From Marvania coccoides (taxonomy: Eukaryota; Chlorophyta; Trebouxiophyceae; Chlorellales; Chlorellaceae): DNA of 64,000 nt. Where the stretch lies: positions 310,001-374,000 of the forward strand of contig OY978099.1 in assembly GCA_963854735.1 (NCBI GenBank), given 5' to 3'. A model generated the notes under the pieces. The model had not been told where the DNA came from. It made no database searches and saw nothing but the letters and a program-made list of their open reading frames with translations. Of this stretch, positions 30,629 through 43,330 are shown in pieces. How positions within the stretch are numbered: position 1 is the stretch's first letter; each line of letters begins with the position of its first letter. Position numbers and translations under genes: made by a program.

Positions 30629-30712
30629 TGTTAACACGGCGCTCTAACCAACTGAGCTAATCGGTCATCGTCTGAGTGACCGATGAGAGGGTTGAACTCC
30701 CGGCCTCCGCGG
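30629..30712 (-). tRNA. Circularly permuted tRNA-Val(AAC) gene candidate
   Basis: On the minus strand the 3' half comes first (30712-30677): C38, anticodon-stem strand CGCGG, variable AGGCC, T stem GGGAG/CTCTC around loop TTCAACC, acceptor strand ATCGGTC and discriminator A. A 10-nt spacer (30676-30667) follows, then the 5' half (30666-30629): acceptor GACCGAT, TA, D stem GCTC/GAGC around AGTTGGTTA, G26, anticodon-stem strand CCGTG, then TTAACA. Rejoined at position 37/38 the halves make a 74-nt cloverleaf. All seven acceptor pairs are perfect, and T54T55C56, G18G19, T8/A14 and G15/C48 are in place. The loop TTAACAC gives anticodon AAC. A TTTT run (30623-30620) just after the 5' half could end Pol III transcription. 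A bulge-helix-bulge at the ends was not clear. A fragment of a tandem tRNA dimer is the alternative. Confidence 0.7.
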
Positions 30713-31049
30713 AAAAAACGTTCAATCTATGAAATGTTCTCGATATACACCATCCTACAGTAAACTGCTGACAGGCTGCCCTCATGACTCTGGGAACGTC
30801 GGGCTCCAGCCACTCTCCTCACCCTGTATTACATTCTCAAAAGATTAAGCGGCTTTATGCAAAAACAAACATGATTTCTGACGCTCCCGTCAGCAAAGAA
30901 CTAAAATGCCGCACAGTTGACCACCAGCCTAAAGACCTCAGAAGCCGCTCAGCTGCATGCTGGATTTCCAGCTGGTTCGCAGCGTCTTATGGGGCCTTTT
31001 TCTATATGCTTTATCTAAAGAAAAATATAAAATATGAAGGGAGGAAAGG

Positions 31050-38984: not shown

Positions 38985-41900
38985 GCTAAAGGTTTGGAGG
39001 TTTGGAGGTTTTACATATGGTTGTAACGTCTACTACCAAGGTTGGTGCAAGCCGACGGGCCACTCACCCCGCCACAGTAAGGCGGAGTACCCCCTTCCAT
39101 CCGTGGGATCAACCTCAGGTACTGGGGGCGTACGGATACAGCATTACGCCGATACCGCACCGTCGCCCACAATGTAAGACTCTGGCCCCTGTCTTCCTGA
39201 GTCCCCCACCGGCGCGACCGACATGAATAAAAGAAAGAGGAAAAAAAAATTTGGGGAAAGCAGGACTCTCCGGACGGCAAACGGCCCGTCCGGTTTGGGG
39301 TTCGCGCTTGGGCAATGCTGGCCCGCCCAGCACCCCTCCCATCTACAGCGGTCACTCAACCCCTGGCTTAAGGGTTTATGGTGTACTACCCGGTGTGCTC
39401 ACTGGAAATGTGGCACCCGCCATTTGTACCCGTCCGATAGAGACTACGATACCACGGGGAAGTGAAGCATCCGACGTCGCAGTGCAGTAAACAACCAAAG
39501 TTTACGCACTGGCAGCTACAATGAGCTAACTAGTAGGGAGCGCGAACCACCGCATGTGCAAGCATAATATATTAAATAAATCACCATATTGTAAAATTTC
39601 TTCATCTTCGTAATCTTGACTCTCTCTCGCTCCTTGTGCTCTCTTTATTCGCCGCCTGTACGCCCTCCAGGTGCGCCCGCACCAGGGCTGCCACCTGGGT
39701 GAGGTCTGCCTCCGCCATTTCCAGCAGGCTCCTAGTCGTTGGCGCCGCTGCCAACGCTGTGGCCGCCTGCGCCCGCTCTTGATGCAGCGCGGAGCAGGTG
39801 CGCAAGATGTGCGATTCGTGGTGCGGGCCTGGCTGCGCGCACAGGGGGCACACGGCTGGTGGGTGCCAGACTCCACTCTCCCCCACCCTTGGGACTCGGA
39901 TCCATTGCACTCCTAGCCGGAAACGCGACAGCGCTGCTCTGTCCGCTCTCGGCAAGAGTGCCTGCAATACCGTCCCTTCCGCACTCTGCAGGTGGCGGTG
40001 GGGCACGTAGTCCTCCGCGGAGAGCGGTGTAGGGTACCAGGTGTCGAGATAAGTGCTAAGCTGCAAACTTGCCGACCCCGTCAGTGCTGCCAGCCATTTC
40101 CCCTCGGCATTGGTGCGCAGCAGTCCTGACGCGTCGTCATGGAGGGAGCCATTGGCGCGCATCACGCCGAACTCCCTTAGCATTGCGCGCGCCTCTGCCG
40201 CCCAGCACGGTGGCCACGCCGCCCTTGGCTCCGCCACCGGCAACCCAACCGCCGCCGCCGCCGCTGCTGTCACCTCCGCGGCAGCCCGCGTCGCCAGCTC
40301 GCCCTTCTCCATCTCCTCGCTGGCCAGAAACGCCTGGTGGGCCAGGTGGTCCTCTGGGAGCTCGCGGAGCCGAGTCCAGAAACGCAGTACAGCTGCGGCG
40401 TATCTGATTTCCACCGGCCACATCGCCGCCTCCACCAGCAGCGCAGCCGTCCTGATCCCCATCGTTGGGACTCCAAGGAGCGGGCGCAGGAAGCGCGTGA
40501 GCAGGCGGTAGCTCCCGGCATGGCTGCCGCTCAACGGGTCTGCCGCCCAGGCCGTCGCTGCTGCTGCTCCCCACACCTCCGCGCCGTACTCCAGTCCTGG
40601 CAGCACCATGGCGTTGAACAGCATGGTGATGTGCGCCGGCGTGTCGATGTCCAGCTCAGCCGCCCGTCTGCGCACTGCATACATCGCCCGCAGCGCTTTG
40701 GCAGCGCGGTGGTCTCCTGCGGCGGCGAACGGCTTCAGCGCGTGGAACTCGAAACCTAGGTACGTGAAGGCGGCCATTCGCGGTACGATGCCGTCGGCGT
40801 ATTTCCACTCCCAGCCCCTCTCCACCTTGCTGAGTCCTACTCCAAAAACGACGATTTCGGTTTTAGTAAGGTTGACAGCGAGCCCAGCTGCAATGGCGTA
40901 GGTGTTGAGGGTGTCGAGCTGCCGTTGTAGGCCCGCTGGAGTGGTGGAGAGGAGGGCCAGGTCGTCGGCGTAGAGCAGCGGCGGCAGCGAGCGCCCTCGC
41001 AGTAGCGGCAGGTCTACCCCAGCCGCATCTAGCTCCGCGCGCTCCAGGTCGTCCACGTACAATCCAAAAAGTGTGGGGCTGAGGGGGAAGCCCTGGCGCA
41101 GGCCCACCAGGCACGGGAAAGTGGCTGTGAATCCAGCGTCGCCTTTCACGCAGACCGGGATGTCTGCATACAGCGTCTGGATGGCGCGCATCAACCAGCC
41201 CCCCACGCCAGCCGCCTGCAGCTTCCCCCAGAGCTTCTCTCGCGGGACCGAGTCGTACGCCTTCCGAAAGTCAACAAAACAGACGAACAACGGCGTTTTC
41301 TCCATTGCCCGCTGCTGCAGCTCCAACATCGTCCGCAGCACGAAGATCTGGTCCGCGCACCGCCGCCCCGGCCGAAACCCCGCCTGCCCTTGCGCACGCA
41401 CCCCCGCCGCCTCTGCCCAGCCTACCAGGCGCGTGTTCAGCGCTGAGGCGTAGAGCCGAGCCAGCAGGGTGCCCACCGTGATGGGCCTGTAGTCCCCCGG
41501 CTCGTGCACGTCGCCGCCTGGCTTGTGGATGGGGGTGATGTACCCCCAGGCCCACTCGCGCTGTAGGCCACCCAGGCGCACACAGGCGTTGAACAGCGCC
41601 GCCAGCGGTGCTGCCAGCGCTGGCATCAGGGCGCGTAGCACCTCCGGCCGGAGGTCGCCTGCGTAGGCCTTGTTGGTGCGCATTTTCAGAGCCGTGTCTT
41701 CGAGCTCAGCCGGCGTGAAGGGTGCGACCATGGCGGGGTTCTCTGCAGGGGAGGGGTTGGAAGGATCGGCAACGGGGATTTGGTCAGGCACAGTCACAAA
41801 CGCAGCAGGGTGGTCAGCGCCAAACAGGTTCTTGTAATAGCGCAGAAAAACTTCATCAGCAATCACAGGGTCAAGGTGACTCAAGCGTTTGAATAACTTC

Positions 41901-43330
41901 CATAAGGGTGAGCGAGCCGCCGCCGCATGCAGGAGCTGCACCAGTTTATCGGCTGCCGTCTGCTTCTTCCGTTGCTCGCGCATGCACTCCAGCTGGTCCT
42001 TGTAGTTCTGGGCCAGCTGGGAGTCCCCATGCTGGAGCGCATCTCGGAATGCCCGCACCGTTGCCGCCGCCTCCGCCCCGCCGCCGCTGTGGGCTCCAGG
42101 CGCAGCCCCATTCGCCGCCGCTTGCGCCACCACTTCTGCTCCAGCATTTGCAAGAGTGGCATCCACTGCGGCGCATAGCTTGGCTGCCAGGGCGTCTACC
42201 TCCACCTGCTGGGTGGCGCCGTTTGCAGCACTGCTAAAATCGACCAGCTCCTCTGCAGCCGCAGCCAGGGAGGTCGGTGTCTTCAATGCTCGGAGCACGT
42301 CGTCCGTGATCTCGCGCACTGGGGCAGCGGGGGCGGGGATATCTTGCGGGTGGGTGGCAGCCCGGCCTGCTTGTCGGCGTTGGAGGTCTAATGCACTCAG
42401 CGGGGCGCTCGGTATGGAGGGGTTGAAGGTGAGGAGCAGCGCATTATGGTCTGATAGTGCCCTAGGCACCGGAACCACCTCTAGTGATTTCACCAGGCGC
42501 CCCATGTCTGTCGGCACCAACGCCAGGTCCACCACCGCTGTCCCCAGTCCTGTCACGCCATGGCTGGTCGCTGCGCCGTGCAGGTCCCCTGTGGTGCAGC
42601 CATTCTTGAGAACCATGTCTTGCGCAGTCGCCATCCGCACGACGTTCTTCCCCCTTGGATCAGGGGCAGCTGTGTCAGCGCTTGCGCGCGGCGGCGCTGG
42701 GCAAGGGTGGGTGTTGTGGAGGTGTTTGAGTGCCTCTGAGTCCACAGAGCCGTCGTACACCGGCGGGGGGCCCTCCCTGCTCTGCGCGCCCGCCTGAAGC
42801 CGGCCGATGTGGGCATTAAAATCGCCTATCGGTACCGCCCAGCCCCGCGCGTGCGCCTCTGGCATGGTGTCCTCCAGCTCCGCTAGCCCAGAGTCTCCAA
42901 TCCACCCTCGCGCGCCCCCAGCCGGCGGGAGGTACACGTTGGCGATTAGCAGGGGGCGGTCCATGGAGGGCGGGGCGCTGATCTCCACCCAGAGCGCCGT
43001 GCTAGACTCCCGCCAAACGTGCGCCGGGCCCATTTCGGTGGCCACGTACATCAGCAGTCCTCCCCCTGCCCCCGTGGGCGCGTTGGACTCGCTGGGGACG
43101 GAGAAATGTTGGTACCCTGGCAGCAACGGCGGGGAATCGCCAGGGGGCAGGCCCGTCTCCTGAAAGCAGATGATGAAAAGAAACAGAGAAAAGAATAACA
43201 AAGGAAAAGAAAAGAAAAGCTTATATCCAACCACGCAGCTTCTCGTACTCGCCAGCGTCATGGCTGGCTTTAATGAAAGAAGCAACCTGCGTCGGAGCTT
43301 GCTGCAGAAACTGAAAAAGATTCAAAGGAG
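38985..43330 (-). mobile_element. Near full-length non-LTR retrotransposon (LINE)
   Basis: One long ORF (39602-43285) encodes an APE-type endonuclease and reverse transcriptase. About 600 bp of 3' untranslated sequence follows, carrying the family A landmarks. The 3' end at about 38985-39015 (minus strand) is TGTAAAACC followed by two CTCCAAACC units. The 5' boundary near 43330 abuts the tail of a second copy. No target-site duplication could be fixed by eye. Confidence 0.85.
39602..43285 (-). CDS. LINE ORF2: endonuclease, reverse transcriptase and zinc knuckle
   Basis: A 1227-codon uninterrupted frame. The endonuclease shows CFQETGL (catalytic Glu), PIGDFNAHIG and SDHNALLLTF, in family order; its N-terminal Asn strand is absent from this frame. 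Reverse transcriptase follows from about residue 540: DYRPITVGTLLARLYA, CFVDFRKAYDSV, GLRQGFPLSPTLF and YADDLALL (codons at 40972-40961). The C-terminus ends with a CPLCAQPGPHHESHILRTC zinc-binding motif. A TTTCAG just before the Gln-Glu-Thr codons (about 43165) looks like a splice acceptor, so the true 5' end of the CDS may be spliced or truncated. The lack of stops suggests recent activity. Confidence 0.85.
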   Translation of the reverse strand: MLLSLKPAMTLASTRSCVVGYKLFFSFPLLFFSLFLFIICFQETGLPPGDSPPLLPGYQHFSVPSESNAPTGAGGGLLMYVATEMGPAHVWRESSTALWVEISAPPSMDRPLLIANVYLPPAGGARGWIGDSGLAELEDTMPEAHARGWAVPIGDFNAHIGRLQAGAQSREGPPPVYDGSVDSEALKHLHNTHPCPAPPRASADTAAPDPRGKNVVRMATAQDMVLKNGCTTGDLHGAATSHGVTGLGTAVVDLALVPTDMGRLVKSLEVVPVPRALSDHNALLLTFNPSIPSAPLSALDLQRRQAGRAATHPQDIPAPAAPVREITDDVLRALKTPTSLAAAAEELVDFSSAANGATQQVEVDALAAKLCAAVDATLANAGAEVVAQAAANGAAPGAHSGGGAEAAATVRAFRDALQHGDSQLAQNYKDQLECMREQRKKQTAADKLVQLLHAAAARSPLWKLFKRLSHLDPVIADEVFLRYYKNLFGADHPAAFVTVPDQIPVADPSNPSPAENPAMVAPFTPAELEDTALKMRTNKAYAGDLRPEVLRALMPALAAPLAALFNACVRLGGLQREWAWGYITPIHKPGGDVHEPGDYRPITVGTLLARLYASALNTRLVGWAEAAGVRAQGQAGFRPGRRCADQIFVLRTMLELQQRAMEKTPLFVCFVDFRKAYDSVPREKLWGKLQAAGVGGWLMRAIQTLYADIPVCVKGDAGFTATFPCLVGLRQGFPLSPTLFGLYVDDLERAELDAAGVDLPLLRGRSLPPLLYADDLALLSTTPAGLQRQLDTLNTYAIAAGLAVNLTKTEIVVFGVGLSKVERGWEWKYADGIVPRMAAFTYLGFEFHALKPFAAAGDHRAAKALRAMYAVRRRAAELDIDTPAHITMLFNAMVLPGLEYGAEVWGAAAATAWAADPLSGSHAGSYRLLTRFLRPLLGVPTMGIRTAALLVEAAMWPVEIRYAAAVLRFWTRLRELPEDHLAHQAFLASEEMEKGELATRAAAEVTAAAAAAVGLPVAEPRAAWPPCWAAEARAMLREFGVMRANGSLHDDASGLLRTNAEGKWLAALTGSASLQLSTYLDTWYPTPLSAEDYVPHRHLQSAEGTVLQALLPRADRAALSRFRLGVQWIRVPRVGESGVWHPPAVCPLCAQPGPHHESHILRTCSALHQERAQAATALAAAPTTRSLLEMAEADLTQVAALVRAHLEGVQAANKESTRSERESRLRR

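Follow-up and report, generated by a model that had tools for sequence, protein, structure and literature searches.

The two valine tRNA loci of the window

Within the window, by which we mean the whole 64,000-nt (64-kb) stretch of DNA analysed here, positions 30712 to 30629 of the minus strand carry the two halves of a tRNA-Val(AAC) in reversed order. The initial annotation had placed the 3′ half ahead of the 5′ half on this strand with 10 nt between them, and the sequence confirms it; the order of the halves is established, as is the pairing described below. The features are listed in the direction of the minus strand.

30728–30713, minus strand: leader of tRNA-Val(AAC), whose UUGA and GUU are able to pair with UCAA of the trailer and the anticodon AAC (BHB-like); T6 run at 30718–30713
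30712–30677, minus strand: 3′ half, positions 38–73, 36 nt, holding the B box (sequence, covariance model R1 described below, ARAGORN)
30676–30667, minus strand: spacer CTCAGACGAT, 10 nt, linking position 73 to position 1 and free of any T run
30666–30629, minus strand: 5′ half, positions 1–37, 38 nt, with the A box and the anticodon AAC (sequence, R1, ARAGORN)
30623–30620, minus strand: TTTT, presumed RNA polymerase III terminator, 5 nt past position 37

Rejoined at 37/38, the halves give a cloverleaf of 74 nt that pairs in 7/7 positions of the acceptor stem, 4/4 of the D stem and 5/5 of both the anticodon and T stems, the last two with one G-U each, so that direct reading bears out the annotated structure. 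Consensus bases are present at T8, G15:C48, G18G19, U33, the T-loop TTC and A73; those of the annotated invariant bases that were examined, together with the A73 of tRNA-Val, are all kept. CCA is not encoded, CTC coming after A73. ARAGORN calls the rejoined halves Val(aac), and neither ARAGORN nor Rfam (gathering scores) reports any tRNA in the 64-kb window as it stands. One annotated detail proved wrong: TTTT had been put directly after the 5′ half, and 5 nt intervene. Taking the locus together with the genome-wide evidence below, we consider it very probable that 30712–30629 is a functional nuclear tRNA-Val(AAC) gene permuted at 37/38 (type II).

A second permuted gene, tRNA-Val(CAC), bearing an 89-nt insert in its D arm, lies 4.3 kb from tRNA-Val(AAC) in the window.

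26329–26294, minus strand: 3′ half of tRNA-Val(CAC), positions 38–73, with perfect T and acceptor stems
26293–26281, minus strand: spacer of the permuted gene, 13 nt (pairing and ARAGORN)
26280–26270, minus strand: 5′ half, exon 1, positions 1–11 (pairing and ARAGORN)
26269–26181, minus strand: presumed D-arm intron, 89 nt (ARAGORN on spliced versus unspliced sequence)
26180–26155, minus strand: 5′ half, exon 2, with the anticodon CAC; supplies the rest of the D arm together with a 5/5 anticodon stem
26148–26145, minus strand: TTTT, 6 nt downstream of the 5′ half

Spliced and rejoined, this sequence is called Val(cac) by ARAGORN, which calls nothing in the unspliced form; the locus is presumed to be a permuted gene with a D-arm intron, the edges of the insert being uncertain since CAGTG is present at both ends. 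A reading without the insert was rejected: a 5/5 anticodon stem fits, but the variable loop is then 18, the D stem pairs in 1/4 and ARAGORN makes no call. Elsewhere in the window, 9 kb from tRNA-Val(AAC), a 1227-aa ORF (39602–43285, minus strand) contains a reverse transcriptase domain (PF00078, E 6.1e-29) and is probably a retrotransposon.

Model scores and the genome-wide census

To score permuted genes, a covariance model (R1) was trained on artificially permuted tRNAs. Its training set consisted of 38 class I tRNAs from the organelles and the nucleus of this genome, which a script had permuted at 37/38, inserting 8 random nucleotides as spacer; the tRNA-Val(AAC) candidate was not among them. 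On the window, R1 places tRNA-Val(AAC) first with 60.7 bits (E 1.3e-19) and tRNA-Val(CAC) second with 27.3 bits. As controls, ordinary tRNA genes in 149 kb of organelle sequence reached 45.8 bits and collinear nuclear ones 28.5 bits. Because ordinary genes reach 45.8 bits, scores below about 46 bits prove nothing alone, and we rejected R1 bit scores as proof of permutation. Val(CAC) at 27.3 bits and Leu(CAG) at 33.2 bits fall within the control range, and both therefore rest on pairing across their halves.

The assembly comprises 22.46 Mb in 15 contigs, 13 of them nuclear; contig 14 (49,038 bp) looks mitochondrial and contig 15 (99,873 bp) looks plastid, judging by ORFs and tRNAs. The product of an SPO11/TOP6A ORF in the window shares 87% identity with Chlorella ohadii and 85% with Myrmecia bisecta, the nearest named among the 120 matches listed, none of which exceeds 89% identity; this points to a trebouxiophyte green alga. 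On the mitochondrial contig, an ORF at L010:2137–2547 consists of the 9-residue unit MYLTSYKVR repeated about 15 times, a 27-nt tandem repeat.

Collinear genes were sought with RF00005, which found nuclear Val(TAC), Gln(CTG), Met(CAT), Gly(TCC), Glu(TTC) and Asp(GTC) without introns and Cys(GCA), Lys(CTT) and Thr(AGT) with introns, a total of at least nine nuclear tRNA genes from the 63 of 454 first-look candidates that were scored. A scan for T arm and acceptor strand added a tenth gene, the intron-containing Ser(TGA). Nine or ten collinear genes cannot be a complete nuclear tRNA set. Of 132 matches to the B-box pattern GGTTCRANYCC, 86 are nuclear, and all 86 were examined (30 in stretches of 161–171 nt only), and six of these 86 places are genes of the RF00005 search; AGTTCRANYCT has 105 matches, 98 nuclear, of which 24 were examined (5 already known, 19 as stretches of 111–141 nt). 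The scan looks for a T arm and then a matching acceptor strand (with T8 and A-box-like bases), a design blind to genes permuted within the T loop.

In all, 19 loci came out of the scan as permuted, and 17 of them were resolved, all at 37/38, the kind searched for. They comprise Val(AAC), Val(CAC), Gly(GCC), Leu(CAG), Leu(CAA), Thr(CGT), Thr(TGT), Glu(CTC), Arg(TCG), Arg(CCT), Arg(CCG), Arg(TCT), Ser(GCT), Asn(GTT), Phe(GAA), Ala(CGC) and Ile(AAT), lie on several contigs and have spacers of 6 to 85 nt. Upon rejoining, ARAGORN gives the expected anticodon for 15/15 intronless permuted tRNAs and, after splicing, for both insert-bearing ones. In Leu(CAA), an 81-nt D-loop insert is probable on a 7/7 acceptor reading; this insert is less sure, because ARAGORN also calls Leu(caa) with the insert kept and another 5′ acceptor strand, a poorer fit by eye. 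Permuted genes thus make up 17 and collinear genes 10 of the 27 resolved nuclear tRNA genes, both counts being lower bounds; as B-box places were partly examined and T-loop breaks escape, 17 is a minimum and its ratio to the collinear genes may shift. No anticodon is both permuted and collinear among these 17 and 10 nuclear genes. His, Trp, Tyr, Pro and iMet are among the tRNAs for which this census turned up no gene. The annotated reading of tRNA-Val(AAC) as a permuted nuclear gene is upheld by a genome holding 17 genes of the same architecture.

Several places stand outside the count. L052:1487–1569 has permuted halves with a 7/7 acceptor stem, a 4/5 anticodon stem and no sensible loop, perhaps because its anticodon arm carries an insert. 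L072 has a 7/7 acceptor stem but a 2/5 anticodon stem and was taken as chance, as was L034, which the scan flagged as collinear and which is without tRNA character. L091 scores 32.7 bits with R1, but there is no matching acceptor strand downstream; it shares with L097, L101, L119 and L126 a tRNA-like 3′ end, mostly followed by a T run, and these are probably further collinear genes with introns. L092 (C8:773590–773760) repeats the 3′ end of Lys(CTT), intron end included, on the opposite strand at a distance of 5 kb, and RF00005 makes no call there. Extra pieces also lie near permuted genes: L040:1591–1673 is a decayed tandem copy of permuted Leu(CAG) that misses the start of the 3′ half and keeps the 5′ half and T run intact; in L086 (C6:847090–847260) a second Ala(CGC) 5′ half follows the terminator of the permuted gene; and at L042:447–526 (minus strand), 1 kb from permuted Thr(CGT), is a lone Thr(CGT)-like 5′ half with a T run (R1 14.2 bits) and no T arm beside it.

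Pairing, terminators and rival readings

Pairing across the halves was evaluated in three comparisons that differ in how far they lean towards structure. In alignment A3 (12 rows from 13 loci, Gly(GCC) lying below the cut and Arg(TCT) matching in part), which does lean towards structure, 97.9% of cells of the permuted cloverleaf pair, against 59.4% in shuffles; both sides have changed in 19/21 pairs, and the cloverleaf has a covariation score of 0.994, where shuffles give 0.241 (0 of 500 as high) and slid controls 0.215 or below. A test on all 19 scan-flagged loci leans less than A3, because acceptor and T stem were the basis on which the loci had been selected: 15 of them admit a 5/5 anticodon stem with no insert (the one at Val(CAC) being a chance fit), compared with 35 of 342 different-locus pairings given the same search freedom. 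With fixed stems, 16 of the 17 resolved genes pair 5/5 and Asn(GTT) pairs 4/5, compared with 5/5 in 11 of 272 mismatched pairs, a comparison in which the anticodon stem was itself part of choosing the 17. Furthermore, a T4 run lies within 8 nt after position 37 in 16/17 permuted genes (background 5.3%, binomial 5.5e-20), the exception being Leu(CAA), where it lies 15 nt after. As the T run is enriched after the 5′ half and was not used in gene finding, transcripts should cover first the 3′ half, then the 5′ half, and stop at the run. Covariation and T run are both established here.

These comparisons bear on whether the tRNA-Val(AAC) locus is a chance resemblance or an assembly artefact. The scan does occasionally flag chance loci, L072 among them, with its 7/7 acceptor and 2/5 anticodon stem; tRNA-Val(AAC), by contrast, has an E of 1.3e-19 with R1, and its architecture recurs in 17 loci on several contigs, with differing spacers (6–85 nt) and covarying stems, which makes chance or artefact vanishingly improbable.

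The annotation had named findings that would speak against a permuted gene, and two were looked for. One was a collinear tRNA-Val(AAC): RF00005 found none in the genome, a search whose yield is a lower bound and which did find Val(TAC). The other was membership of a multicopy repeat, and BLAST with the candidate and its flanks returns only the locus itself. Likewise, BLAST with the rejoined tRNA-Val(AAC) returns only its two halves, in reversed order, at 30712–30629. By the decoding rules, GTT and GTC codons need a tRNA with anticodon AAC (inosine) or GAC, and the Val anticodons found in the nucleus are AAC, CAC and TAC only. Being the sole source found for reading GTT and GTC, a status established within the limits of the search, the permuted tRNA-Val(AAC) gene is therefore, judging from the sequence and within those same limits, indispensable.

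The locus might instead be the dead remnant of a tandem tRNA dimer, the 3′ half of one copy followed by the 5′ half of the next. Such a remnant would be in keeping with the 45.8 bits that ordinary organelle tRNA genes reach with R1, and partial tandem copies do adjoin two other permuted genes, those for Leu(CAG) (L040) and Ala(CGC) (L086). Around tRNA-Val(AAC), however, no outer halves are seen, the 8-mer at the end of each half occurring once on that strand (64 kb, exact matching); its stems are all intact and the checked invariant bases kept, its T run sits where a permuted transcript should end, and without it no tRNA reading GTT and GTC is found. We accordingly consider a dead remnant unlikely, with only a slight chance of being right. 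As an origin, tandem duplication and loss fits the extra copies beside Leu(CAG) and Ala(CGC), and a living tRNA-Val(AAC) gene may have arisen by duplication with loss of the outer halves.

It is highly improbable that the two halves belong to collinear genes with very long introns, or to split genes joined in trans. Collinear Cys, Lys, Thr and Ser(TGA) genes do have anticodon-loop introns, and intron splicing is therefore at work in this genome; against such readings, no exact partner end occurs within 64 kb, the rejoined tRNA-Val(AAC) matches this place only by BLAST, and the complementary acceptor strands lie 10 nt apart, so that another partner is unneeded.

Processing, promoters and relation to known systems

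For the permuted tRNA-Val(AAC) gene, we infer transcription, circle formation, maturation and charging from work on Cyanidioschyzon and prasinophytes. RNA polymerase III, stopping at the T run, would make one short transcript of leader, 3′ half, 10-nt spacer and 5′ half. Inside this transcript the acceptor and anticodon stems would pair, and tRNA splicing endonuclease would cut to both sides of 37|38. Position 37 would then be joined to 38 by a ligase, probably RtcB, closing the circle, which RNase P and tRNase Z would open into a tRNA by removing the spacer, with CCA added afterwards.

Candidate machinery was assessed by domain matches. The splicing-endonuclease catalytic domain has two matches (E 4.7e-16 and 5.9e-13) and RtcB one in three pieces (E 1.6e-83), so that both domains are established as present; T4-type tRNA ligase has no match in the genome, nor in any control. 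Of the TFIIIC-type domains, Tau95 matches over 42 residues (E 4.1e-12) with no control matches, and the B-block TFIIIC match (E 9.4e-11) is weak, since that family also matches 8 of 14 prokaryote controls, above the cut-off in 4. From these matches, the A- and B-box-binding subunits of TFIIIC seem to have been kept, even though every permuted gene has its B box ahead of its A box.

The annotation had remarked that a bulge-helix-bulge (BHB) was not obvious at the outer ends, which holds in that the fold is no more stable than shuffles and fails in that a BHB-like fold is visible in the unconstrained pre-tRNA. In that unconstrained fold the permuted cloverleaf forms, and two helices, GUU:AAC and UUGA:UCAA, surround the 37|38 cut sites; the minimum free energy of the tRNA-Val(AAC) pre-tRNA is not better than that of shuffles (z −0.41). 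When leader and trailer were cofolded with the anticodon stem fixed and compared with shuffled and foreign leaders in 15 genes, tRNA-Val(AAC) gave p 0.70 against shuffled leaders and the mean z over the 15 was −0.47, the best cofolds being Val(CAC) (p 0.015) and Leu(CAG) (p 0.06). In the same 15 rows, base 32 seemed, by eye, to pair little more than chance would give with the third base ahead of 38. On the mean z of −0.47, BHB was dropped as proof of permuted processing. Since eukaryotic splicing endonucleases measure from the tRNA body (PMC3978253, a review), a weak BHB motif is no refutation.

More awkward than the weak BHB is the T6 run that abuts the 3′ half: a polymerase III transcript begun farther upstream could be stopped by it and would need read-through. 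Runs of T4 or longer occur in 5 of 11 permuted-gene leaders of 30 nt. A TATA lies at −35 of tRNA-Val(AAC), and TATA occurs between −65 and −16 in 2/11 permuted and 2/10 collinear genes (background 7%). A TATA box or AT-rich promoter as a common feature was not found in these 11 permuted and 10 collinear genes.

Permuted tRNA genes are an already known class, trebouxiophyte Auxenochlorella included, and tRNA-Val(AAC) is therefore a new member and not a new class; the review (PMC3978253) lists 34 permuted tRNA genes, none of them for Val. The circle pathway is reported to have been shown in red and green algae. In Cyanidioschyzon merolae (Soma et al. 2007, via PMC3978253), 11/43 tRNA genes are permuted with four kinds of junction, 37/38 in 6/11. 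As in Marvania coccoides, the 3′ half comes first, the spacer is short, a T run follows the 5′ half, CCA is not encoded and some genes combine permutation with an intron (PMC3978253). The two differ in that most C. merolae genes have TATA-like boxes upstream, that C. merolae has no recognised TFC1/TFC3 homologue and that its junctions are of four kinds (PMC3978253), whereas M. coccoides has no common TATA, TFIIIC-type domains are matched in its genome and all 17 resolved genes are at 37/38, the kind searched for.

For Ostreococcus, Micromonas and the Bigelowiella nucleomorph, 2 to 6 genes per genome are reported, many of them Ser (Maruyama et al. 2010, via PMC3978253). They share the green lineage with M. 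coccoides, and all but one of their permuted genes have the 37/38 junction; spacers there are at most 64 nt (PMC3978253), compared with 17 genes, spacers up to 85 nt and other isotypes here. In O. lucimarinus, Ser(TGA) resembles our insert-bearing genes in having an intron outside 37/38 besides the permutation, and permuted Cys is followed by a surplus 5′ half, comparable to the one in L086 (PMC3978253). The archaeon Thermofilum pendens likewise has reversed halves as the sole source of an anticodon, and differs in its archaeal setting, a 59/60 junction and an encoded CCA (PMC3978253). The trebouxiophyte Auxenochlorella UTEX 250-A is also reported to have permuted tRNA genes (Craig et al. 2025, PMC12636532); its nuclear genome is of similar size, and there too the set from an ordinary tRNA scan was incomplete before permuted genes came to light. 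Each haplotype has 12 chromosomes, the plastome 84.6 kb and the mitogenome 54.0 kb (PMC12636532), compared with 13 nuclear contigs and organelle contigs of 99.9 and 49.0 kb here.

With 17/27 resolved nuclear tRNA genes permuted compared with 11/43 in C. merolae, this would be the most permuted genome known to us, on a partial census and with the Auxenochlorella count outside the comparison. As ARAGORN and Rfam miss these permuted genes, any alga with such genes will seem to have gaps in its tRNA set. We tentatively propose, with somewhat less confidence than doubt, that most nuclear tRNAs of this alga come from permuted genes, some needing removal of a D-arm insert, that these are transcribed with TFIIIC present, and that its polymerase III may tolerate, or be adapted to, a reversed promoter order.
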